Shown: piece by piece, positions 25,288 to 50,452 of the stretch | Position numbering within the stretch: the first letter of the stretch is position 1 | Layout of the letters: every line of letters starts with the position of its first letter | Source of the DNA: Lutibacter sp. HS1-25 | GTDB lineage: Bacteria; Bacteroidota; Bacteroidia; Flavobacteriales; Flavobacteriaceae | Assembly (NCBI RefSeq): GCF_004121075.1 | Contig: NZ_RHLN01000008.1 | Location: forward strand, 1-64,000 | Length of the DNA: 64,000 bases | Direction of reading: 5' to 3' | Notes under the pieces: model-generated | Databases searched by the model: none | Told to the model about the DNA's origin: nothing | The model's input: only the letters and a program-made list of their open reading frames with translations | Translations under genes and position numbers: made by a program

Positions 25288-25317
25288 ATAAAAGCTAACC
25301 TATTGGTTAGCTTTTAT
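25288..25317. terminator. Bidirectional terminator of the DUF3570 and argH genes
   Basis: A perfect 13-bp stem (25288-25300 with 25305-25317) and a four-base loop, followed by a T-run on the plus strand. The stop codon of argH (25300-25302, minus strand) lies within it, so the last codons of argH are part of the hairpin. Confidence 0.9.
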
Positions 25318-26583
25318 TTTTTTATTTACTATTTCGTCTAAACACAAATTACCCACACTTCCTTTGTGCGTATGTGTTACATTTTTATCTGGATTAAAAG
25401 TACCTTCTTCAATATTTTTTCCTACTATTTTATAGGCATCTCTAAAAGGTGTTCCGTTTTGAACTAATTTATTAACTTCCTCAACACTAAACAAATACAA
25501 GTACTTTTCCTCTTCAACAATATTGGTTCTTACACGAATATTTTTTAATGAATAAGTTAGCATTTCTAAACAAGCTTTTAATGTTGAAAATGAAGGAATT
25601 AAACCTTCTTTTAACAACTGCAAATCACGATGATAACCACTTGGAAGGTTATTTGTAATTAATGTAAACTCGTAAGGTAAAGCTTGTAATTTGTTACATT
25701 TTCCTCTAATCAATTCAAAAACATCTGGATTTTTTTTGTGAGGCATAATGCTTGAGCCTGTAGTTAATTCATCTGGAAAAGAGATAAAATTAAAATTCTG
25801 ACTCATATACAAACAAATATCCATACTCATTTTAGACAAAGTACTTGCCACAGAACTAATCGCAAAAGAAACCGATTTTTCTAATTTTCCACGTCCCATT
25901 TGAGCCGCTACCGAGTTGTATTTTAAGGTTTCAAAATGCAATAATTTGGTGGTTTCATCTCTATCTATTGGGAAAGAACTTCCGTAACCAGCAGCAGACC
26001 CTAAAGGATTTTGATCGGCTACTTTGTAAGCTGCTTTTAAGAAATAAATATCGTCAATCAAAGTTTCAGCATAAGCTGAAAACCACATACCAAATGATGA
26101 TGGCATTGCTACTTGCAAATGTGTATAACCAGGCAACAATACATTTTTATACTGATCGGCCAAAGAAATTAACAAATCAAATAACTCATTTACTTCACCA
26201 TTAATTTCGGTTAAAGCATCTTTTAAATACAAATGCACATCAACCAAAACCTGATCGTTTCTTGAGCGTGCAGTGTGGATTTTTTTACCAGTATCTCCCA
26301 ATTTTTGAGTCAATAAAAACTCTACTTTAGAATGCACATCTTCAAAAGAATCTTCAATGGTAAATTCTCCAGCTTCAATCAATTTTAAAATAGCGTTTAA
26401 TTCTACTTCTAAAACCGAAATTTCTTCCGCAGTTAATAAACCAATTTTGTGTAACATTTTAGCGTGTGCTAAATTACCAATTACATCGTATTTTGCTAAA
26501 ATTAAATCCAATTCCCGGTCGTTACCAACGGTGAATAAATCTATTTTTTTATCTGTTGAAAATCCTTTATCCCAAAGTTTCAT
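25300..26583 (-). CDS. argH: Argininosuccinate lyase
   Basis: Last step of arginine synthesis: argininosuccinate to arginine and fumarate. A 427-residue fumarase/aspartase superfamily protein with the signature TTGSSIMPHKKNPD (catalytic serine loop, about residues 272-285), KIHTARSRNDQVLVD near the N-terminus and GYTHLQVAMPSSFG. Start ATG 26583 (MKLWDKGFSTDKK) is chosen. The open frame extends 20 codons further upstream, but those codons come from a dispersed palindromic repeat, not from protein sequence. It is the last gene of the arginine/proline operon. Confidence 0.96.
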   Translation of the reverse strand: MKLWDKGFSTDKKIDLFTVGNDRELDLILAKYDVIGNLAHAKMLHKIGLLTAEEISVLEVELNAILKLIEAGEFTIEDSFEDVHSKVEFLLTQKLGDTGKKIHTARSRNDQVLVDVHLYLKDALTEINGEVNELFDLLISLADQYKNVLLPGYTHLQVAMPSSFGMWFSAYAETLIDDIYFLKAAYKVADQNPLGSAAGYGSSFPIDRDETTKLLHFETLKYNSVAAQMGRGKLEKSVSFAISSVASTLSKMSMDICLYMSQNFNFISFPDELTTGSSIMPHKKNPDVFELIRGKCNKLQALPYEFTLITNNLPSGYHRDLQLLKEGLIPSFSTLKACLEMLTYSLKNIRVRTNIVEEEKYLYLFSVEEVNKLVQNGTPFRDAYKIVGKNIEEGTFNPDKNVTHTHKGSVGNLCLDEIVNKKIKANQ

Positions 26584-26601
26584 AATTAATGTTTTTTTGA
26601 T

Positions 26602-26663
26602 GGTTGAGCGAAGTCGAAACCACATGCTGTTTTGCACTGTCACTTCGACTTCGCTCAGTGACC
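26602..26663. repeat. Dispersed palindromic repeat between argE and argH
   Basis: TGAGCGAAGTCGAA (26605-26618) and its exact inverse (26644-26657) flank a 25-base centre, and GGT/ACC extends the outer ends. This sequence type recurs between genes in many Flavobacteriaceae. A decayed relative lies at 45385-45437. It may fold in the operon mRNA between argE and argH. Confidence 0.75.
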
Positions 26664-26670
26664 ACTTTAT

Positions 26671-27729
26671 CTATATAATTTCTTCTAATATTTTAATGTA
26701 TAAATCTACCCCTTCTTCAATTTCATTTAAGTAAATAAATTCATCGGCGGTATGAGAACGCAAACTTTCACCTGGTCCTAATTTTAATGATGGACAACTT
26801 AAAACTGCTTGATCTGAAAGCGTTGGTGATCCGTAAGTAGATCTTCCTAATTTAATTCCGGCCTGCACAATGGCATGTTCTTTTGGAATTGAAGACGAGT
26901 TTAATCGCAATGATCTTGGACAAACTTCAGATTTTACATTTGCTGAAATAATCTCAAAAACTTCTTGATTTGAATAAGCATCTGTAACCCTTACATCTAC
27001 AACATATTTGCAATTTGCTGGTATCACGTTATGTTGACTGCCTGCCTCAATTTGAGTTACCGTCATTTTTATTTTCCCCAAAGTGTCAGACACTTTAGGA
27101 AATTCAAAAGTTTGAAACCAGTTAATATCTTCAATGGCGTTGTAAATAGCATTATCAACAATACCGTGCGCAGCGTGACCAGCAGTTCCTTTAGCTTCGC
27201 AGTTCAACACCATTAATCCTTTTTCAGCAATCGCCAAATTCATTAAAGTTGGTTCACCTACAATGGCAAAATCAATTTCAGGAATAATTTTTAACATACT
27301 GTTTAAACCATTTTGCCCTGAATTTTCTTCTTCAGCAGAAGCCACAATCACAAAATTGTACTTTAAATCTTCTCTATTGTAAAAATAAGTGAATGTTGCT
27401 ATTAACGAAACCAAACAGCCTCCAGCATCATTGCTTCCTAAACCGTATAATTTTCCATCTTCAACAGTTGGACTTAGTGGGTTGCGCGTATAACCTTTGT
27501 TAGGTTTTACAGTATCATGATGCGAGTTTAATAAAATTGTTTTTTTTGAAGGATTGAAGTGTTTGTTTTTTGCCCAAACATTGTTTTTATCTCTTTCAAA
27601 CAAAATGTTATGATTCAAAAACCACTGCGAAATTAACAAAGCAGTTTCATTTTCTTCACCAGAAAATGATTGCGTTGAAATTAATTTTTTGAGCAGTTCA
27701 ATAGCTTCATTTGTTAGTTTTTCTATCAT
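26671..27729 (-). CDS. argE: N-acyl-ornithine deacylase (M20 family, ArgE-like)
   Basis: A 352-residue M20 metallopeptidase-family enzyme that removes the acetyl or succinyl group to release ornithine or, in the carbamoyltransferase variant pathway, citrulline. Metal ligands are visible in LNSHHDTVKP (about residues 67-76), GSNDAGG (about 98), SAEEENSG (about 130) and the C-terminal SLRSHTADEF. Because argF encodes an acylornithine carbamoyltransferase, the likely substrate is N-acylcitrulline. It lies 1 bp after argB. Confidence 0.92.
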   Translation of the reverse strand: MIEKLTNEAIELLKKLISTQSFSGEENETALLISQWFLNHNILFERDKNNVWAKNKHFNPSKKTILLNSHHDTVKPNKGYTRNPLSPTVEDGKLYGLGSNDAGGCLVSLIATFTYFYNREDLKYNFVIVASAEEENSGQNGLNSMLKIIPEIDFAIVGEPTLMNLAIAEKGLMVLNCEAKGTAGHAAHGIVDNAIYNAIEDINWFQTFEFPKVSDTLGKIKMTVTQIEAGSQHNVIPANCKYVVDVRVTDAYSNQEVFEIISANVKSEVCPRSLRLNSSSIPKEHAIVQAGIKLGRSTYGSPTLSDQAVLSCPSLKLGPGESLRSHTADEFIYLNEIEEGVDLYIKILEEII

Positions 27730-27730
27730 T

Positions 27731-28513
27731 TTACAAACTTAAAGTTGTATATAATTTATTTGAACTATCTACCAATGAAGCATCTCCAATTTTTACTTTG
27801 CTTACCCCTTTATTAAGGGCATTAAAGCAATTGTGAATTTTTGGAATCATACCATCAGCAATAATACCTTGAGCCACTAATTGCTCGTGTTTTTTGGCAT
27901 TTATATGTGTAATTACCGAATTTTTATCGTCAATATTTTCTAAAACACCTTTTAATTCAAATACAAAATTCAATTCTGTTTGGTACAATTTACTCATTCC
28001 TACAGCAATTTCCGAAGCAATTGTATCGGCATTTGTATTTAATAATTGTCCGTTTTTATCGTGTGTAATTGCACAAAAAACTGGCGTTACATTGTTTTGC
28101 AACAATACATCTATGATAGTATCATTGATAGCATCAACATCACCTGCAAAACCGTAATCAATATCTTTTACAGTGCGTTTATGTGCCAAAATACAATTGG
28201 CATCAGCACCAGACAAGCCCATTGCATTGCAATTGTTTTTTTGCAATTGTGCTACAATTTTTTTATTTAACAAACCAGCATACACCATTGTTACCACCTC
28301 AACAGTAGCTTCATCAGTAACTCTGCGTCCATTGATCATTTGAGGCTGCAAACCCATAGCTGATGACAATTCTGTAGCTTTTTTTCCACCTCCGTGAATT
28401 AAAATTTTAGGACCTTCAATGGCAGAAAAATCTTTTAAAAATGAATTTAAAGCATCGTTATTATTAATAACGTTTCCTCCAATTTTAAAGATTTGCAATA
28501 CTTGATTTTTCAT
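27731..28513 (-). CDS. argB: N-acylglutamate kinase
   Basis: A 260-residue amino-acid kinase that phosphorylates N-acetyl- or N-succinylglutamate. The N-terminal lysine region is QIFKIGGNVI, the substrate loop is ILIHGGGKKATELSSAM (about residues 37-53) and the C-terminal ATP region DGMIPKIHNCFNAL is normal for ArgB. Within the operon the substrate may be the succinylated form (see the carbamoyltransferase). There is a gap of 88 bp to argF upstream that holds a palindromic repeat. Confidence 0.94.
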   Translation of the reverse strand: MKNQVLQIFKIGGNVINNNDALNSFLKDFSAIEGPKILIHGGGKKATELSSAMGLQPQMINGRRVTDEATVEVVTMVYAGLLNKKIVAQLQKNNCNAMGLSGADANCILAHKRTVKDIDYGFAGDVDAINDTIIDVLLQNNVTPVFCAITHDKNGQLLNTNADTIASEIAVGMSKLYQTELNFVFELKGVLENIDDKNSVITHINAKKHEQLVAQGIIADGMIPKIHNCFNALNKGVSKVKIGDASLVDSSNKLYTTLSL

Positions 28514-28575
28514 TGTTTTATTCTTAGTAATAAGAAATGATAATTTTTAAATACAAATTAAAACACAACTCTAAA

Positions 28576-28589
28576 CCCTCTTGAGAGGG
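28576..28589. repeat. 14-bp palindrome CCCTCTTGAGAGGG
   Basis: A perfect palindrome in the argF-argB gap, 12 bases after the argF stop. It resembles short dispersed palindromes common between flavobacterial genes. It could act as an mRNA-processing or stability hairpin inside the operon. Confidence 0.55.
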
Positions 28590-28601
28590 AAATTGTATTT
28601 T

Positions 28602-29552
28602 TTAATTCAGACTTTCAAGAATCTTTTTCAACACAATTTGTGCAGAATAAGTTCTGTTATTTGCTTGTTCAATTACTACCGAATTTTCAGAATCTATTAC
28701 CTCATCAGCAACAATAACATTTCTACGCACAGGTAAACAATGCATAAACTTGGCGTTGTTTGTCAAGTTCATTTTATCAGCAGTTACTGTCCAGTTTTTA
28801 TCTTTATTTACAACTTTACCATAGTCTTTAAAAGAACTCCAGTTTTTAACATACACAAAATCAGCATTTTCAAATGCTTTGTCTTGATTGTATTCAATTG
28901 TAGAATTTTTAGTAATGTCTGTATCTAACTCATAACCTTCAGGATGCGTAATTACAAAATCTGCATCTTGCAACTGCATCATTTCAACAAAAGAATTGGC
29001 TACAGCTTGCGGCAAAGCCTTTGGATGCGGTGCCCAAGACAAAACAACTTTTGGCCTGTGAGCAACTTTGTTTTCTTCCATAGTAATGGCATCTGCCAAG
29101 GCTTGTAACGGATGACCCGTTGCACTTTCCATATTTACAACAGGAATACCAGCATATTTTTTAAAACTATTGATTACAATTTCTGCTTTGTCTTTTTCTT
29201 TATCTGTTAACGAAGCAAAAGCTCTAATGGCAACAATATCACAATATTGTGCAATTACCTTAGCCGCTTCTTTAATATGTTCAGATTTATCTCCGTCCAT
29301 AATAGCACCATCTTCAAATTCTAATTGCCAGCCTTCGCTACCAAAATTCATCACAATGGTATTCAATCCTAAATTTTGAGCTGCTTTTTGAGTACTTAAA
29401 CGGGTACGTAAGCTATTGTTAAAAAACAACAAACAAATTGTTTTTCCTTCACCTAGTGTTTTAAATTGTAACTCGTTATTTTTTAAATCAATGGCTTCTG
29501 CCACTGTTTTTTGCAAACTATCCAAGTCGTTTATATTGGTGTAATGTTGCAT
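28602..29552 (-). CDS. argF': N-acylornithine carbamoyltransferase (probably succinylornithine type)
   Basis: A 316-residue transcarbamylase of the acetyl/succinylornithine group rather than the ornithine group. The carbamoyl-phosphate motif is FFNNSLRTR (residues 43-51), GHPLQALAD follows near 157 and MHCLPVRRN near 278. Acyl choice is set by one position in the loop after DGD. From published work on this family, glutamate 92 in the Xanthomonas enzyme favours acetyl and proline 90 in the Bacteroides fragilis enzyme favours succinyl. Here the residue is serine 90 (MDGDKSEHI), small and uncharged, which argues for succinylornithine. That alignment was made by eye. It lies 1 bp after proB. Confidence 0.9.
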   Translation of the reverse strand: MQHYTNINDLDSLQKTVAEAIDLKNNELQFKTLGEGKTICLLFFNNSLRTRLSTQKAAQNLGLNTIVMNFGSEGWQLEFEDGAIMDGDKSEHIKEAAKVIAQYCDIVAIRAFASLTDKEKDKAEIVINSFKKYAGIPVVNMESATGHPLQALADAITMEENKVAHRPKVVLSWAPHPKALPQAVANSFVEMMQLQDADFVITHPEGYELDTDITKNSTIEYNQDKAFENADFVYVKNWSSFKDYGKVVNKDKNWTVTADKMNLTNNAKFMHCLPVRRNVIVADEVIDSENSVVIEQANNRTYSAQIVLKKILESLN

Positions 29553-29553
29553 G

Positions 29554-30336
29554 TTAATTTAATTTAATTTTTGTAAACTTACTTTTATTATTAATGGCAT
29601 TCACCATAAAATTGTCTTTTAAACCGTTAACCACCCAAGTTTCAATATTTCCTTTTTGGGCAATTTCTGAAGCCTGAATTTTGGTTTTCATACCTCCAGT
29701 TCCATGAGAAGAAAACGAATTTAAAATATGATTTTTAAGCTCTTGAATATCTGATGTTTCTGCTATTGTTACAACCTCATCTGTATCCATAGATTCTTTT
29801 GTGTAAATACCATTGGTATTGGTCGCTATAATCAATAAATCTGCACTTAACAAAACTGCAGTTAAGGCAGATAATTTGTCGTTATCTCCAAATTTAATTT
29901 CATCAGTAGCTACCGTATCATTTTCGTTGATTATTGGAATGTAATCATTCTCAACCAAAATATTGATGGTATTTACAATGTTATTTTTTGATTGTTCTTT
30001 TTCAAAATCGGAATACGATAATAAACACTGAGAGGTTAACAAACCTAAATCTCTAAATGTTTCTTGGTAAATACGCATTAAATGCGGCTGACCAATAGAT
30101 GCCAACGCTTGTTTTACGTTTATTTCTTTACCGTTACTTTCTAATTCCACAAATTGTTTAGCCACTGCAATAGCACCTGAACTAACAATTACAAATTCGT
30201 ATTTATCTTTTAACTCAGCAATTTGACTGGCAATATCTTCTATCTTGCCACGAGAAATATGGTTGGTTTCTTTTGTTAATACGTTTGAACCAATTTTTAA
30301 TAGGATTCTTTTTTTACCTGATTTGGCCATTTCCAT
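29554..30336 (-). CDS. proB: Glutamate 5-kinase, short form without PUA domain
   Basis: First step of proline synthesis. A 260-residue amino-acid kinase with KIGSNVLTKE, VIVSSGAIAVAKQ, the substrate region IINENDTVATDEIKFGDNDKLSA (about residues 133-155) and GTGGMKTKIQASEIA. It ends after the kinase domain, so it lacks the C-terminal PUA domain of the 367-residue E. coli enzyme, which may alter feedback by proline. Two in-frame starts exist (30336 and 30330). The start overlaps proA by about 20 bp. Confidence 0.95.
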   Translation of the reverse strand: MEMAKSGKKRILLKIGSNVLTKETNHISRGKIEDIASQIAELKDKYEFVIVSSGAIAVAKQFVELESNGKEINVKQALASIGQPHLMRIYQETFRDLGLLTSQCLLSYSDFEKEQSKNNIVNTINILVENDYIPIINENDTVATDEIKFGDNDKLSALTAVLLSADLLIIATNTNGIYTKESMDTDEVVTIAETSDIQELKNHILNSFSSHGTGGMKTKIQASEIAQKGNIETWVVNGLKDNFMVNAINNKSKFTKIKLN

Positions 30337-31510
30337 ATATAAACCATTTATTAGTAACTAAATGTTGTAAACCCATTGGACCTCTATGATGCAATTTATC
30401 TGTACTTATAGCCAATTCACCACCCAAACCAAATTGACCGCCATCCGTAAAACGCGTTGAAGCATTTTGATAAACTGCGGCAGAATCAACCGATTCCATA
30501 AACTCGAGTGCCAATTCGTTATTTTTTGTAATAATTACTGCTGAATGCCCACCGCCATAGGTATTTATTTTTGAAATTGCCGCTTCTGTTGAAGGTACAC
30601 TTCCAATCACAATTTTATAATCTAAAAACTCTTCATACCAAATATTTTCATCTGTATACGCTGAAATATTTTCAAAAGAAGCCAATACTGCATCTCCAAG
30701 AACCTCAACTTTTGACTCTAATAGTTTTTCAACCAACGTTTTAATGAAGCTTTCTTTGTTTGGTAAATTTGAATTTATCAAAACTTTATCTACCGCATTA
30801 CAAGCTGAAATTTTTGCAGTTTTACCGTTGATAATAACCTTTAGCGCCAATTCTAAATCGGCCTCCGTATCAACATATACAAAATTATTTCCGCGACCAC
30901 TTACTATCACAGGACATTTGGCATGCTTTTTAGTAAATGCAATTAACTGTTCACCACCACGAGGCACAATTAAATCAACTTTTTGAGTTGGATTTTCTAA
31001 AAAAGCTTGTGTTTGAACACGGTCGTAATTTATATATTCAACCCAGTTTGTTGAAATATGATTTGCTTCCAAAGCTTTGTGCCACAAATCTACAATAGCC
31101 AAATTTGACTTTACAGACTCTTTACCACCTTTTAACAAAATTTTGTTACCCGATTTAAAAGCAATCCCAGCAGCTTCAACAGTTACATCTGGTCTAGATT
31201 CATAAATAATTAAAACCGTTCCAAAAGGAGCAGTTCTATTAATTATTTTCATTCCGTTTTCGTGGTTAAAGTTGTACAATTCTTTTCCTAACGGATCTTC
31301 ATCGGCAATTAATTGCTGTAAAGATAAAATCATACCATCAACCTTAGCGTCGTCTACTTTTAAACGATCGTACATGGCTAAATCGCCCCCTTTATAACTA
31401 TCAACATCTGTTTTATTTACGGCTAAAATCTGTGCTCTTTCCAAAGCAATCAATTCTGCCATTGTATTTAAAACATTGTTTCGTTGTTTAATTGTCAACA
31501 TTTTATTCAT
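30314..31510 (-). CDS. proA: Gamma-glutamyl phosphate reductase
   Basis: Second step of proline synthesis, NADPH-dependent reduction of glutamyl phosphate to the semialdehyde. A 398-residue aldehyde-dehydrogenase-superfamily protein with the active cysteine in GKTAKISACNAVDKVLI (about residues 230-246) and the conserved VIYESRPDVTVEAAGIAFKSGN. It overlaps argD upstream by 4 bp and proB downstream by 23 bp, so proline and arginine genes are translationally linked. Confidence 0.96.
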   Translation of the reverse strand: MNKMLTIKQRNNVLNTMAELIALERAQILAVNKTDVDSYKGGDLAMYDRLKVDDAKVDGMILSLQQLIADEDPLGKELYNFNHENGMKIINRTAPFGTVLIIYESRPDVTVEAAGIAFKSGNKILLKGGKESVKSNLAIVDLWHKALEANHISTNWVEYINYDRVQTQAFLENPTQKVDLIVPRGGEQLIAFTKKHAKCPVIVSGRGNNFVYVDTEADLELALKVIINGKTAKISACNAVDKVLINSNLPNKESFIKTLVEKLLESKVEVLGDAVLASFENISAYTDENIWYEEFLDYKIVIGSVPSTEAAISKINTYGGGHSAVIITKNNELALEFMESVDSAAVYQNASTRFTDGGQFGLGGELAISTDKLHHRGPMGLQHLVTNKWFIYGNGQIR

Positions 31511-32637
31511 GATACCAAAACCTCTTTTAAAGCATTTATAAATTGATCAATCTGGTCTTTGGTTACGGTTAAAGGTGGTAAAATTCTCAACAATTTTTTA
31601 TTGTTTGAACTACCTGTAAAAATGTGTTTATCGAAAATTAATTTTTTTCTTAATTCGGCAATTTCAAAATCAAATTCAACACCCAACATCAACCCTTTTC
31701 CTTTTACTTTTACAACTTCAGGAATGGATTTTATTTGCTCTAAAAAATAAAAATAAACATCGTTTACGTTGTTTAATATACTTTCATTTTCAATAATATC
31801 CAATACAGAAATTGCAGCTGCACAAGCCAAATGACTACCACCAAAAGTAGTACCTAACATTCCGTATTTGGCTTCGTATTTATCGGCAATTAAAACGCCT
31901 CCAATTGGAAAACCGTTAGCCATTCCTTTTGCAGTTGTAATAATATCTGGATTAACACCGTGATATTGAAAAGCAAAAAACTTTCCACTTCTGGCATAAC
32001 CAGACTGAATTTCGTCTAAAATTAAAATAACACCCTTTTTATTACAAAATTTTTCAACTTCTTTAAAAAACTCGGTTGTACCTTCATCTAAACCTCCAAC
32101 ACCTTGAATTCCTTCAATAATTACAGCAGCAACATCACCTTTTCCCAATTCGTGAATTACCAAATCAATATCATTTAAAGGTAAAAAAGTTACTTTTTGC
32201 TGTAAATTGATTGGTGCATTGATACTTTTATTGTCTGTAACTGCAACTGCTGCTGAAGTACGACCGTGAAACGAATTATCAAAAGCGATAACTCTACTTT
32301 TTCCGGTAATAAATGAAGCTAGTTTTAATGCATTCTCATTGGCCTCGGCACCTGAATTACATAAAAACAAGTTGTAATTTTCGCAACCAGAAAGTCTCCC
32401 CAATTTTTCAGCCAATTCTTTTTGAAGTGGATTTTGAATTGAATTTGAGTAAAATGCCAAATTGTTTAATTGATGGGTAATTGCATCTACATAAGCTGGA
32501 TGCGTATGACCAACCGAAATAACACCGTGACCTCCGTATAAATCTAAATATTTTGTATTATTTTTATCCCAAACGTGGGCTCCTATAGCTTTAACAGGAG
32601 TCACATCATACAATGGGTAAACATCAAATAAATTCAT
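31507..32637 (-). CDS. argD: N-acylornithine aminotransferase
   Basis: PLP-dependent class III aminotransferase converting N-acylglutamate semialdehyde to N-acylornithine. The 376-residue chain shows LFLCNSGAEANENALKLA (about residues 90-107), the aspartate-containing LILDEIQSGYARSG (about 202) and the PLP lysine in TTAKGMANGFPIGG (about 225-238). It lies between proC and proA; the same enzyme class also acts on ornithine, so it could link the two pathways. It is 11 bp after proC. Confidence 0.94.
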   Translation of the reverse strand: MNLFDVYPLYDVTPVKAIGAHVWDKNNTKYLDLYGGHGVISVGHTHPAYVDAITHQLNNLAFYSNSIQNPLQKELAEKLGRLSGCENYNLFLCNSGAEANENALKLASFITGKSRVIAFDNSFHGRTSAAVAVTDNKSINAPINLQQKVTFLPLNDIDLVIHELGKGDVAAVIIEGIQGVGGLDEGTTEFFKEVEKFCNKKGVILILDEIQSGYARSGKFFAFQYHGVNPDIITTAKGMANGFPIGGVLIADKYEAKYGMLGTTFGGSHLACAAAISVLDIIENESILNNVNDVYFYFLEQIKSIPEVVKVKGKGLMLGVEFDFEIAELRKKLIFDKHIFTGSSNNKKLLRILPPLTVTKDQIDQFINALKEVLVS

Positions 32638-32648
32638 GTTTTTATGTT

Positions 32649-33443
32649 TTAAATCTGACTAATTTTTTCAAACGATGTTACCAAACCTTTGATTAATGAC
32701 GAACTTAAACCTTGGTGTTCCATCTCATTCAAACCTTCAATTGTACAACCGCTTGGTGTTGTTACTTTATCTATTTCCTGCTCTGGGTGATTGCCCGATT
32801 TTACCAACAAACTTGCTGCACCTAAACAGGTTTGAACTGCTAACTCTTGTGCTTCTGCAGCGTGAAAACCTAATTGTACTGCACCTTGAGCCGTAGCGCG
32901 TATTAAACGCATCCAAAAGGCAATTCCACTGGCACAAATTACAGTTGCAGACTGCATTAATTTTTCTTCAATACACATGGTTTTACCAATAGAATCGAAA
33001 ATAATTTTTGCAAAATCTATATTTTTTGTTCCTAACAAATTAGCACTCAAACAAGTCATTGATTGCCCTACAGAAATAGCTGTATTTGGCATAGCTCTAA
33101 TAACAGCAACATTTGAACCCAATGCATTTTCAATATCACTAATTACCCTACCAGTTACTACAGAAATAATGGTATGTCTTTTAGGATTTACAAGATCTTT
33201 TATTTCTTCTAAAACACCTGGTAATTGATTGGGCTGAACTGCAATAATTACAACATCAGAAAACCGAACTGCTTTTTTATTATCTGTTGAAATTTTTACA
33301 TTGGGTAACTTATTCCAAGAGTCTAATGCTTCGGTATTTCGTTTTGTTAAATATAAGTTTTTCACTTTAAAGTTGTCTTGAGTTAAAAGACCAACTGCTA
33401 TTGAATAACCTAAATTTCCTGTGCCTAAAATTGCAATTTTCAT
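32649..33443 (-). CDS. proC: Pyrroline-5-carboxylate reductase
   Basis: Last step of proline synthesis. A 264-residue protein with the N-terminal nucleotide motif AILGTGNLGYSIAVGLL (residues 3-19) and VIIAVQPNQL. The C-terminal dimerisation region ends in the family signature DKVTTPSGCTIEGLNEMEHQGL (about residues 225-246). It sits in the middle of the arginine genes, between argC and argD. Confidence 0.95.
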   Translation of the reverse strand: MKIAILGTGNLGYSIAVGLLTQDNFKVKNLYLTKRNTEALDSWNKLPNVKISTDNKKAVRFSDVVIIAVQPNQLPGVLEEIKDLVNPKRHTIISVVTGRVISDIENALGSNVAVIRAMPNTAISVGQSMTCLSANLLGTKNIDFAKIIFDSIGKTMCIEEKLMQSATVICASGIAFWMRLIRATAQGAVQLGFHAAEAQELAVQTCLGAASLLVKSGNHPEQEIDKVTTPSGCTIEGLNEMEHQGLSSSLIKGLVTSFEKISQI

Positions 33444-33464
33444 AATTGTTGTTTTATAATAGTG

Positions 33465-34442
33465 TTAAAATGAATTCGCTTTGAGTTTTAATCCTTCTGT
33501 TTGTGGTAAGCCAAATATTAAATTCATATTTTGAATTGCTTGACCTGAAGCACCTTTTAATAAATTATCTATAACTGAAGTAATTAAAAGCTTGTTTTTA
33601 TGTTTTTGCAAGTGTAAAAAGCAATTGTTTGTATTTACTACTTGTTTTAAATGAACTGGTGATTTTGAAACGTGAGTAAATACAGCATCTTTATAAAAAT
33701 TATCAAATAACTCGTACGCATCATCAAGTGTACCTTCAAAATCTAAATACACTGAAGCAAAAATACCACGACTAAAATTCCCTCTGTTAGGGATGAAGAA
33801 TATCTCGTTAGAAAAATCATTTTGCAACGCTGTTAAACTTTCTCCAATTTCACCTAAATGTTGATGTGCAAAAGCTTTATATACTGAAAAGTTATTATCT
33901 CTCCAGCTAAAATGTGTTGTTGCACTTGGTGAAACACCCGCTCCTGTAGATCCTGTTGTTGCATTTACATGCACTTCACTATTAATCAACCCAGCTTTTG
34001 CTAATGGCAACAATGCCAACTGGATAGCTGTAGCAAAACAACCTGGATTTGCAATATTATTGGCCTTCTCAATTTTTTCTTTTTGAGCTTCAGGCAAACC
34101 GTAAACAAATTCTTTTTCCTGAAAAACAGCGTCGGCATTCAACCTAAAATCGTTGCTTAAATCAATTATTTTTGTATTGTTTGAAAACAAGTTGGCTTCT
34201 AAAAACTTTTTAGAGTTACCGTGTCCTAAACATAAAAATAATACATCTACATTTTTATTGATTTCGCTTGAAAATTTTAAATCTAAAGTACCAAACAAAT
34301 CATCATGTACTTGGTAAATAAAATTTCCAGCATTTGATGTGCTATACACAAAATCTAATTCCACATTTGGGTGATTAACAATTAATCTTATTAATTCACC
34401 TGCTGTATATCCTGCTCCACCAACAATTCCTATTTTAATCAT
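33465..34442 (-). CDS. argC: N-acylglutamyl-phosphate reductase
   Basis: NADPH-dependent reductase giving N-acylglutamate semialdehyde. The 325-residue protein starts with GIVGGAGYTAGELIRLIVNHP (residues 5-25), and the catalytic cysteine lies in ANNIANPGCFATAIQLALLPLA (about 125-146). VNATTGSTGAGVSPSATTHFSWR follows. The length fits the family. It is 2 bp after argG and 21 bp before proC. Confidence 0.95.
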   Translation of the reverse strand: MIKIGIVGGAGYTAGELIRLIVNHPNVELDFVYSTSNAGNFIYQVHDDLFGTLDLKFSSEINKNVDVLFLCLGHGNSKKFLEANLFSNNTKIIDLSNDFRLNADAVFQEKEFVYGLPEAQKEKIEKANNIANPGCFATAIQLALLPLAKAGLINSEVHVNATTGSTGAGVSPSATTHFSWRDNNFSVYKAFAHQHLGEIGESLTALQNDFSNEIFFIPNRGNFSRGIFASVYLDFEGTLDDAYELFDNFYKDAVFTHVSKSPVHLKQVVNTNNCFLHLQKHKNKLLITSVIDNLLKGASGQAIQNMNLIFGLPQTEGLKLKANSF

Positions 34443-34444
34443 AA

Positions 34445-35626
34445 TTATGAATTTACGCTGTGATAAATTTTGTTTGAAGTACCTAAAATCTTGATAAATC
34501 CTTTCGCGTCTTCAGCAGTCCAAGCTTTGTTAGTTTCTCCATATTCACCAAACTTCGACTTCATTAAATCGTGTTTAGACTCAATACCATTTAAACTAAA
34601 ATGATATGGTTTTAAGGTTACAAACACCTCACCTGTTACTGTTTTTTGAGAGTCTTCTAAAAAGGCTTCAATATTACGCATTACAGGCTCAAAATATTGA
34701 CCATCGTGAAATAACATTCCGTACCAGCTAGCCAATTGTTCTTTTAAATTTTGTTGCCATTTAGACAATACGTGTTTTTCTAATAAATGATGTGCTTTTA
34801 TAGTTACAACAGCAGCTGCCGCTTCAAAACCAACTCTACCTTTAATACCAACAATAGTATCTCCAACGTGAATATCTCTACCAATAGCATATTTTGAAGC
34901 TAAAGCTTCTAATTTTAAAATGGTATTTACTGAAGAATCCATTTCATCATTTAACCCAACCAATTGCCCTTTTTCAAAATGCAATTTAATATTTGTTGGT
35001 TCTGTTTTTTCAAGCTGACTTGGATATGCTTCTTCTGGTAAAGCTTGGTGCGATGTTAAAGTTTCAACACCACCAACACTTGTACCCCAAATACCTTTAT
35101 TTATTGAATATTTTGCTTTAGACCAAGGATAATCTACCCCGTGTTTTTTTAAATATTCTATTTCTTCTTGACGAGATAATTTTAAATCTCTAATTGGTGT
35201 AATTATTTCAATTTCAGGCGCTAAAGTTTGAAAAATCATATCAAAACGAACTTGATCGTTTCCTGCACCTGTACTACCATGTGCTATGTATTTTGCATTT
35301 ATTTTTTTAGCGTACTCAACAACTTCAATGGCTTGAAAAACTCTTTCAGCACTTACAGATAAAGGATATGTATTATTTTTTAACACATTACCATAAACCA
35401 TAAATCTAATGGCATTTTGATAATATTTTTCTAAAATATTTTTATTAGTATGCGAAGCAACACCCATTTCATAGGCTTTTGCCTCAACAACTTTTAATTC
35501 TTCGGCTGAAAATCCACCAGTATTTACCAATACACTGTGAACTTCTAAATTTAATTCATTTTGTAAATATTTTACACAATATGAAGTATCTAAACCTCCG
35601 CTATATGCTACAACTACTTTATCCAT
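34445..35626 (-). CDS. argG: Argininosuccinate synthase
   Basis: Condenses citrulline and aspartate using ATP. The N-terminal PP-loop VVAYSGGLDTSYCVKYL (residues 4-20) and AHGSTGAGNDQVRFDM (about 113-128) are the family signatures. The length, 393 residues, is normal. It follows the GNAT gene by 4 bp. It is the second gene of the operon although it acts late in the pathway. Confidence 0.95.
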   Translation of the reverse strand: MDKVVVAYSGGLDTSYCVKYLQNELNLEVHSVLVNTGGFSAEELKVVEAKAYEMGVASHTNKNILEKYYQNAIRFMVYGNVLKNNTYPLSVSAERVFQAIEVVEYAKKINAKYIAHGSTGAGNDQVRFDMIFQTLAPEIEIITPIRDLKLSRQEEIEYLKKHGVDYPWSKAKYSINKGIWGTSVGGVETLTSHQALPEEAYPSQLEKTEPTNIKLHFEKGQLVGLNDEMDSSVNTILKLEALASKYAIGRDIHVGDTIVGIKGRVGFEAAAAVVTIKAHHLLEKHVLSKWQQNLKEQLASWYGMLFHDGQYFEPVMRNIEAFLEDSQKTVTGEVFVTLKPYHFSLNGIESKHDLMKSKFGEYGETNKAWTAEDAKGFIKILGTSNKIYHSVNS

Positions 35627-35630
35627 AATT

Positions 35631-36248
35631 TTATTTTTTATTTTTCTTTAGAAATATGGCTTGTTTTATTTCCTTTAATCTACTCAATACTTTGGAATTG
35701 TATTTATGTTCTTTTATATTTTTACTGTGTGCAGGATCGTATAACATACCTGTACACAAACACATTTTTTTATCCGTTCTTGTTAAAACGTCGAAGTTTT
35801 TACAAGTTTTACAACCATTCCAAAAGGCTTCATCATTTGTTAATTCTGAAAAAGTTACTGGTTGATAACCCAATTCATAGTTAATTTTCATAACGGCCAA
35901 ACCAGTTGTAATTCCAAATATTTTTGCATCTGGATATTTTTCTAATGAATAATCAAATATTCTCTTTTTAATTTGCTTGGCCAATCCAACATTTCTATAA
36001 TCTGGATGAACAATTAAACCTGAATGCGCCACATATTTACCGTGACTCCAGCATTCTATATAACAAAATCCGGCAAATTTATCTCCATCTAAAGCTATTA
36101 CCGCATTTTGATTTTCTAATTTGGTCATAATATACTCAGGAGTACGTTTAGCAATACCTGTACCTCTTTGCATAGCTGAAGTTTCTATGGTATCACAAAT
36201 TATTTGGGCATATTTGTTATGTGAACTATTTGCAATTACTATTTTCAA
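35631..36248 (-). CDS. GNAT acyltransferase, candidate first enzyme of arginine synthesis
   Basis: A 205-residue protein with a GNAT fold: substrate part RGTGIAKRTPEYI (residues 28-40), beta strand HSGLIVHP and the acyl-CoA loop YRNVGLAKQIKKR (about 84-96). A C-terminal extension has cysteines at 146, 149, 163 and 165 (CKTC and CLC), suggesting a zinc site. The start codon is TTG at 36248; no suitable ATG lies nearby. As first gene of an operon that otherwise lacks argA or argJ, it is a good candidate for N-acetyl- or N-succinylglutamate synthase. This is inference from context. Confidence 0.85.
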   Translation of the reverse strand: MKIVIANSSHNKYAQIICDTIETSAMQRGTGIAKRTPEYIMTKLENQNAVIALDGDKFAGFCYIECWSHGKYVAHSGLIVHPDYRNVGLAKQIKKRIFDYSLEKYPDAKIFGITTGLAVMKINYELGYQPVTFSELTNDEAFWNGCKTCKNFDVLTRTDKKMCLCTGMLYDPAHSKNIKEHKYNSKVLSRLKEIKQAIFLKKNKK

Positions 36249-36293
36249 TTGAATTGATATTTTTTAAATTAATTTAAATTTTAGTTTAAAAAC

Positions 36294-36315
36294 GGAAATG
36301 GACACACCTATTTCC
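36294..36315 (-). terminator. Attenuator terminator in the arg/pro operon leader
   Basis: On the minus strand GGAAATAGG pairs with CCATTTCC around a UGUGU loop, with one bulged A, followed by GTTTTTA. It lies 46 bases before the first structural gene and 161 bases after the leader reading frame, as expected for an attenuator. Confidence 0.65.
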
Positions 36316-36338
36316 CTAAATACAAACCCCCACTAGGG
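36314..36338 (-). promoter_or_regulatory. Candidate antiterminator pairing in the arg/pro leader
   Basis: Transcript segment CCCTA (complement of 36334-36338) can pair either with TTTAGGG inside leader codons 18-20 (complement of 36496-36502) or with an identical TTTAGGG at 36314-36320. The latter overlaps the outer GG of the terminator stem. The two pairings exclude each other, as in classical attenuation. Each helix is short (five pairs plus a wobble). Confidence 0.45.
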
Positions 36339-36475
36339 CCTATAGTGAAAAATAAAAAGCATATCCCTAATTAAAAATTTAATTAAAGTGTTATAAAATA
36401 ATGATTGTATTTGTTGATTTTGATGCAATTTGAACTTGAAAAATAAAAATAAAACTGTTTTTTGGTACTCTAAAA

Positions 36476-36553
36476 TTAACGTACGATGCGGCGCACCCTA
36501 AACGTAGTAGGCGGGGGCGTAAAAACAGGTGTATTTAAAATTTCATTTTTCAT
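36476..36553 (-). CDS. Arginine/proline-rich leader peptide of the arg/pro operon
   Basis: A 25-codon frame from ATG 36553 to TAA 36476. Residues 8-15 read TPVFTPPP and residues 18-25 read FRVRRIVR, so it holds four prolines (9, 13, 14, 15) and four arginines (19, 21, 22, 25). It explains a GC-rich patch (36481-36527) in an otherwise AT-rich gap, since CCN and CGN codons are GC-rich. An operon with both arginine and proline genes follows on the same strand, with a terminator hairpin in between. Ribosome stalling on Pro or Arg codons would therefore sense both end products. Translation has not been shown; the inference rests on codon content and layout. No clear promoter was recognised upstream. 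Confidence 0.75.
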   Translation of the reverse strand: MKNEILNTPVFTPPPTTFRVRRIVR

Positions 36554-40604: not shown

Positions 40605-40820
40605 TTAATATTTATCCATAACACAACTTGCTGAAGCAGAAATGTATCCTACAAAAAAACCATGCTTATTGCAAGAGTTATAATTGTAACCCTTACTTGC
40701 AATAGCAACTTGCGGCATTTTCAAATCTTCTTCAGTAAAATCAACAGCATATAACATAACCTGCGCGGCAGGTTGCGTGGTATCTTGCGTTACTCTTTTA
40801 CTGTGTTTATTTAGTTGCAT
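40605..40820 (-). pseudogene. ilvD: Internally deleted dihydroxy-acid dehydratase remnant
   Basis: A 71-codon frame whose first 50 residues match the start of IlvD: LNKHSKRVTQDTTQPAAQVM, then EEDLKMPQVAIASKGYN and NSCNKH, the conserved Fe-S-cysteine region. It then jumps to GYISASASCVMDKY, which resembles the extreme C-terminus of IlvD (usually ...VSSASEGCVTD). About 490 codons of the body are missing without loss of frame. Several otherwise invariant residues have changed, pointing to decay. It sits exactly where ilvD belongs, as first gene of the operon, 4 bp before ilvB. It cannot be catalytic. It may persist because it keeps ribosomes on the mRNA into ilvB. Confidence 0.82.
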
Positions 40821-50311: not shown

Positions 50312-50325
50312 CCCTATTAAAATTT

Positions 50326-50380
50326 ACGAGGAAAAATTTGAACTGATTGCAACCTCATTAAAAAATGCTAAAGCAGTAAA
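50326..50380 (+). promoter_or_regulatory. SAM-II-type riboswitch upstream of metK
   Basis: The leader fits the SAM-II (metA/SAM_alpha) pseudoknot. P1 is GAGG (50328-50331) with CCTC (50353-50356). The loop ends in the conserved ATTGCAA. The pseudoknot pairs ACTG (50342-50345) with CAGT (50374-50377), and the conserved ATGCTAAAG lies just before CAGT. SAM binding should switch metK off. Downstream GTTGCAAT (50401-50408) is exactly complementary to ATTGCAAC of the aptamer (50346-50353), offering an alternative fold. No terminator is visible. Confidence 0.8.
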
Positions 50381-50452
50381 TATTACTTCTTTAAGCGACC
50401 GTTGCAATTTCCTTCATTTTTACTCTTAAGTATAACTTAAAAATTTAAACCT

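Follow-up and report, generated by a model that had tools for sequence, protein, structure and literature searches.

The eleven-gene arginine and proline operon of the window (the whole 64,000-nt stretch analysed, part of a host genome of 4.18 Mb) is preceded by what is probably a leader-peptide regulator that reads arginine and also proline. From the comparison of sequences, we give a probability of about 0.6 to the reading that this leader couples expression of the operon to the charging of tRNA-Arg and tRNA-Pro. The 25-codon frame described in the first-pass annotation is real and not a product of chance, and it forms one half of a tandem leader. The other half, a second and more proximal frame, had been overlooked together with two hairpins, designated P0 and P1.

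The eleven arg and pro genes that the annotation had placed downstream of the leader are all present, and Pfam is consistent with each at the family level. GNAT starts at 36248 and argH ends at 25300 on the minus strand, and the genes shared among relatives' operons stand in the same order. Upstream of the operon lies ilvC, then a terminator at 36718-36681 (terminator scan), and the gap before GNAT measures 432 nt. The features of the leader and operon are collected in Table 1. ArgR, whose presence in a genome marks the ArgR-controlled class, gave 0 matches in the window's genome in a profile search with PF01316. The same search of 149 genomes of the family (Flavobacteriaceae) gave one weak match of 26.9 bits, to a 312-aa frame, and it does detect ArgR in Bacteroides. 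Elsewhere in the window, an apparent gene remnant, a frame of 71 aa without a Pfam match, lies on the minus strand at 40605-40820 just before ilvB; we take it to read like the start of a dihydroxy-acid dehydratase (ilvD).

Table 1. Positions in the window of the leader features and the operon.
Feature	Position	Strand	Basis
TAATATTG box, 5 nt before the distal start codon	36559..36566	minus	read in sequence
Distal leader frame, 25 codons, MKNEILNTPVFTPPPTTFRVRRIVR*	36476..36553	minus	read in sequence; shuffle test
Hairpin P0, CTTTAATTA / TAATTAGGG, just 5' of the proximal start codon	36365..36388	minus	by eye
Proximal leader frame, MLFIFHYRP*, a weak form of the ...RRP* frame found across the family	36333..36362	minus	read in sequence
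Hairpin P1, where the proximal frame ends	36321..36344	minus	fold and covariance-model alignment
Hairpin P2, 6-bp stem, bulged A, GG-UGUGU-CC apex (terminator of the first-pass annotation)	36294..36315	minus	covariation and model match
T run after P2	36288..36292	minus	read in sequence
Operon GNAT-argG-argC-proC-argD-proA-proB-argF'-argB-argE-argH	25300..36248	minus	annotation and Pfam

Two short frames before the operon

The distal frame carries prolines at codons 9, 13, 14 and 15 and arginines at codons 19, 21, 22 and 25, exactly as first described. A frame of 15-60 codons holding four or more Arg and four or more Pro appeared in none of 2000 dinucleotide-preserving shuffles of the 432-nt gap, and among relatives the rule for a distal frame was satisfied at 74 of 152 loci as against 50 of 3040 shuffles. 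Arginine is moreover kept at the amino-acid level through synonymous codons; for example, the Arg codons of L265/L266 read CGT, AGG, CGA, CGA and AGG. These results all speak against the idea that the distal frame is untranslated, being a chance or decaying frame, which we regard as scarcely credible.

For comparison, 20 distinct frames of the MK type were assembled, the window's included, each of 24 or 25 aa and with at least two Arg in the last eight residues. Proline is found at position 13 in all 20, arginine at position -4 in all 20 and arginine at position -1 in 18, and the PPP triplet is found in three, one of which is the window's. The distal frame is in this respect a conserved Arg-rich leader, as had been supposed. 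When leaders were called by a rule blind to proline, an Arg-rich leader was found at 152 of 159 loci. The frame had also been credited with the only GC-rich patch of the gap, which does not hold, as a second patch at about 36344-36321 is part of the second frame. The box before the distal start codon resembles what we recall as the -7 element of Bacteroidetes promoters, TAnnTTTG; the terminator and promoter scan that was used covers sigma-70 only. In several tandem leaders, L122, L130 and L169 among them, a conserved motif rich in T, CGTAATTTTAATTTTT, lies 30-50 nt past the distal stop codon.

The proximal frame is in relatives short and Arg-rich, often with an RRRP* or PRRP* end, and it is the most widely common feature of these leaders. 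With a rule of at least two Arg in the last nine residues, a proximal Arg-rich frame that ends before hairpin P2 was found at 82 of 93 family loci, and 73 of these frames have a terminal Pro. The 93 loci derive from the 104 family genomes with a good GNAT match (105 less G242, E 7e-4), minus 11 (G000, G017, G120, G138, G139, G147, G159, G188, G191, G224 and G241). Both frames occur in tandem in many genera, including Lutibacter, and the near frame occurs alone in others, for example Maribacter. P0 is also visible by eye in relatives with tandem leaders. Of the window's two frames, the distal one with PPP is probably the main sensor, because the proximal one has a single Arg codon.

The ends of the proximal frames bear on a different mode of action, in which free arginine or ornithine would act on the growing ...RRP peptide at the stop codon, in the way that small molecules act on the arrest peptides TnaC and SpeFL. 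The C-terminal RRP* of most proximal frames and the position of the stop codon in the loop of P1 would suit such an arrest peptide. However, the Arg pair lies at varying distances from the stop codon (RRP*, RRPLRA*, RRTFVRA*), and arrest would leave the tracking of pro genes by leader proline, described below, unexplained. We consider an arrest peptide very unlikely and prefer the reading of a leader that senses the charging of two tRNAs.

Leader proline and the proline genes

The operons of the family differ in the pro genes that they hold, so that a codon-swap experiment has been run many times by nature. Loci (152 in the family) were classed by which pro genes lie within about 12.5 kb. When the last three residues were excluded, 11 of 20 leaders of operons without pro genes lacked proline, as against three of 128 leaders with them (148 family loci). 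Among distal frames, which were called without regard to proline, seven of 14 distinct cases without pro genes lacked proline. The figure was one of 32 where proC was the sole pro gene and 0 of 27 where proA or proB was present. The one case with proC, L136, whose Pro-free frame opposed the link between leader proline and pro genes, was removed from the distal set as spurious and re-called as a single-leader locus. At single-leader loci the mean number of prolines was 0.67 without pro genes (6 loci), 3.48 with proC only (33) and 3.06 with proA or proB (36). Over the leaders, the mean was 2.51 with proC alone and 2.57 with all three genes; one proC seems to matter as much as the full set, which tells against the dual reading. 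A sister contrast illustrates the pattern, as L247 (no pro gene) reads VISTTQIIKSSLRLRQSRR and L255 (proC) reads VISTIKIILPILRFRPRFSR. At tandem loci, the last run of Arg in the proximal frame had a Pro among the four residues preceding it in three of 12 cases without pro genes and in 38 of the 52 cases that have pro genes (Fisher p 0.005, with no correction for ancestry). Thus leaders tend to hold codons for the amino acids whose genes the operon holds, as in leaders that read several amino acids, in a statistical sense and with exceptions.

Shared ancestry was allowed for with trees built from the operon's own proteins; one record in duplicate, L230 and L254, was kept twice in the sets for PGLS, Pagel and simulation. 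In PGLS, the Pro count depended on the presence of any pro gene in the distal frames (p 0.011, 73 taxa), in 152 leaders including four from outside the family (p 0.0079) and in 148 family leaders once layout and GC had been added as covariates (p 0.0071). Proline gave the smallest PGLS p of the 20 residues in both scans (73 taxa and 152 leaders), followed by Lys at 0.017 in the first and by Val, Cys, Lys and Asp at about 0.03 in the second. The Arg count had no trend with pro genes (p 0.92 and 0.98, respectively), and Arg presence, which is nearly always 1, gave p 0.03 in the covariate PGLS of 148 leaders. In the Pagel test of correlated change, proline was the best of 14 residues (p 3.2e-5); of the 13 others, Ala gave LR 15.6 and p 0.0036 and the rest p of at least 0.069. 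The likelihood ratio for proline was 26.0 in the longer fit and 16.3 (p 0.0026) in a shorter one. In simulations of independent evolution, none of 6660 runs reached the observed overlap, and for the distal frames every Pro-free tip fell in the class without pro genes in 15 of 12483. The earlier suggestion that one leader senses both Arg and Pro finds support in this comparative link (Pagel LR 26.0), but not in the switch through which it was said to act.

These data are also where a leader sensing arginine only has to be weighed. In such a leader the Arg codons would sense arginine, and the prolines would have a role in RNA structure, in codon context or in slowing translation and would track pro genes by ancestry. 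Arginine is indeed the constant feature of the leaders, nine of the 20 family leaders without pro genes retain Pro, and parsimony places only about 11 independent changes of each state under the link test. The terminal Pro codon of the proximal frame, in addition, forms part of P1 and does not track pro genes; it was rejected as a proline sensor, being present in 36 of 38 loci with proA or proB, 35 of 40 with proC only and two of four with none. Yet the Pagel, PGLS and simulation results allow for ancestry and favour the link, also without the last three residues, and it persists with GC and layout as covariates. The variety of the Pro codons (CCC 87, CCT 16, CCG 11, CCA 7) also speaks against a leader for arginine only. 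Sensing of arginine only is judged unlikely, and a sensor of both amino acids is preferred.

Outside the family, all four called leaders (L204, L205, L209 and L210) have one to four Pro and no pro genes, contrary to the link. Leaders with proline were also looked for before separate pro genes, and none was clear in 20 regions, which is a soft negative. The filter gave 10 frames in eight of the 20 regions, most with TTG starts and unconvincing by eye; the frames of L287 and L288 are similar to each other. In L290-L292, L295-L301, L303 and L304 a distant second proC-like gene (24-27% identity) lies directly 5' of a distant proB-like gene, outside the arg operon.

Hairpins P1 and P2 and the proposed relay of the signal

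Hairpin P2 (36315-36294, GGAAAT-A-GG-TGTGT-CC-ATTTCC) has in relatives an apex of UGAGU, UGUGU or UGCGU, and P1 reads GCCC-GUAA-GGGU in most relatives, with the stop codon within the loop. The distance from the proximal stop codon to the P2 apex is 15-29 nt in relatives. An alignment of 100 distinct P1-P2 regions from 120 loci, the window's genome excluded, showed changes on both sides in seven of eight pairs of P2, with 96.3% of cells paired, and in one of five pairs of P1, with 92.5% of cells paired. The covariation score of P1 and P2 together was reached by 0 of 500 shuffles, a result that relatedness alone could give; slid controls scored far lower. In L033 and L038 (L. maritimus and L. 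flavus) the proximal frame and P2 have decayed and a long T run follows P1, which looks as if it had turned into a terminator in this PPP/PSP clade. The leaders of L170, L184 and L194 have a P2-like hairpin about 130-250 nt farther than usual from the GNAT gene.

The covariance model R1, made from this alignment, matched the window at 36360-36291 with 33 bits (E 8e-9 over 12 kb, 2.8e-6 over the genome). Among 19 genomes of the same genus, the window's own included, 17 had a strong match (E at most 5.8e-5) just before GNAT, and the two others, G015 and G016, also lacked a GNAT match. Use of P2 elsewhere in the genome was rejected, as those 17 genomes held no second R1 match below E 0.05. In the window, Rfam (4227 families, release 15) matched only a SAM-II riboswitch at 50322-50381 on the plus strand (RF01726, 64.2 bits) and a tRNA, both outside the leader, which had no match at the gathering score. 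On the loci of 11 relatives it returned, at E of at most 10, just two sub-threshold matches, both in L104.

One may ask whether the real regulator is P2, as an RNA that binds a protein or small molecule, with the frames secondary. In favour of this, the letters of P2 are the most conserved of the element, and R1 matches once per genome within the genus, at the arg operon. Against this, P2 has decayed in L004, L007 and L008 though the distal frame persists, and leaders without the UGNGU apex occur outside the family. P2 as the primary regulator is in our estimation quite improbable; the leader frames are taken as the sensor in what follows.

The first-pass annotation had read P2 as a terminator hairpin and had proposed a switch in which CCCTA pairs with either of two TTTAGGG copies. 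The hairpin, the T run, CCCTA (36338-36334) and both TTTAGGG copies are present in the window. The hairpin is absent from the terminator-scan list, however, and the trio occurs together in one of 20 comparable leaders, the window alone. Relatives in the genus (L002-L030) have no T run like the window's, and P2 as a conserved intrinsic terminator was ruled out, with TTTT after P2 in 10 of 82 relatives. P1 was rejected as a conserved intrinsic terminator as well, the U-rich spacer after it having been seen by eye alone. Conserved antiterminator pairing to P2 was not found, with a mean z of 0.36 in the leader, 0.18 upstream and 0.71 downstream. In the window, the free minimum fold (-25.9) breaks P2, pairing its apex with the proximal start region; with P2 enforced the fold gives -19.0, and the CCCTA/TAGGG pairing, at -15.2, is the weakest of the three. 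Of 82 regions, 55 have the P2 stem in their minimum fold. Pairing of the P2 apex with the spacer or with rRNA, and a resemblance to boxB or TAR, were considered as ideas only and have no support. Of the features whose conservation was expected under the switch, the Arg codons and Pro 13 are kept in relatives, but PPP, the paired segments and the terminator are not (3/20, 1/20 and 10/82). By sequence comparison, then, the relay is not a conserved terminator/antiterminator swap.

We propose that transcription would start just before the distal frame and that ribosomes would translate one or two short frames, with Arg codons in the last third and Pro codons beside them. When Arg or Pro is short, a ribosome would stall on the leader and the operon would be on; when both are plentiful, the ribosome would reach the stop codon and depart, with lower expression. 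We infer this direction by analogy with amino-acid leaders in general. The signal would be relayed at P1, underneath the stalled ribosome, and at P2, some 25 nt on. P2 would make RNA polymerase pause or terminate, perhaps with the help of Rho, unless a nearby ribosome overrides it. A ribosome stalled over P1 would sit close behind a polymerase at P2, and pausing, with or without Rho, is the link that we prefer. Between P2 and GNAT the sequence is poor in G (C 16.2%, G 6.7%, 82 loci), as against C 12.8% and G 11.8% before 20 window genes, which are from a different species than the 82 loci; as a hint of Rho this is suggestive only.

Relation to known leaders and meaning for the family

In enteric bacteria, the threonine (thr) and ilvGMEDA leaders respond to two or three amino acids. 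The arg leader is like them in that one leader would read more than one amino acid, all products of the operon, and unlike them in that it pairs Arg with Pro, often split over two tandem frames. Within the family, a His-rich leader was found in nine of 13 his loci examined, including that of the window's genome (L239, hisG locus), where MNFIQLHHHHFYTGNQAS is followed by a hairpin. Eight of the nine his leaders have a hairpin with at least five T downstream, and that of the window's genome has TTTGTTATTT. The his leaders indicate that the family uses leader peptides. Like the his leaders and classical attenuators, the arg leader places a short frame with codons for the operon's products before the operon. 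Unlike in the his leaders, its P2 is mostly without a T run and no conserved competing pairing was found; as both a T-run terminator and a mutually exclusive antiterminator are lacking, it is not filed under classical attenuators, even though it would operate as a sensor of the leader-peptide kind.

Several described leaders resemble parts of this arrangement. In Salmonella, two consecutive Arg codons of speF orf34 sense arginine, with a hairpin past the stop codon and involvement of Rho (PMC6386406); in the part of that article available, the leader controls ornithine decarboxylase via Rho, RNase G and a sequestered ribosome binding site, and Pro sensing does not appear. The leader peptide rbfL of S. 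aureus senses Arg shortage at Arg codons, but, in the available text, it represses a regulator gene by blocking a ribosome binding site and does not serve a biosynthetic operon (PMC13009471). Leader Pro codons control Rho-dependent termination in mgtL, where the response is to Mg2+ and the accessible part of the paper gives Arg codons no role (PMC11282234). For Flavobacterium psychrophilum, of the same family, strong clues for leader-peptide attenuation before amino-acid operons have been reported, and the accessible sections name neither an arg operon leader nor Arg/Pro sensing (PMC9723704). Arginine operons of Actinobacteria are described, in the part available, as having no conserved upstream RNA structure (PMC1262725).

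A dual Arg/Pro leader was not found in the literature searched, chiefly openly accessible articles without their supplements. Leaders that read several amino acids are already known, and it is the Arg/Pro pair that was not found there. The output module of P1 and P2 was found neither in Rfam nor in the same literature, and P2 is a compact conserved RNA without a known role. A broader reading is offered tentatively, as one that we think possible rather than probable: a family-wide sensor of Arg and Pro in one or two tandem peptides, with Pro codons tracking pro genes, acting via P1, its loop holding the stop codon, and P2, its UGNGU apex fixed, as a recognised polymerase pause/release signal that is neither terminator nor antiterminator. 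The link between Pro codons and gene content is directly testable. If true, the leader would explain how arginine synthesis is controlled in bacteria in which ArgR is not detected.
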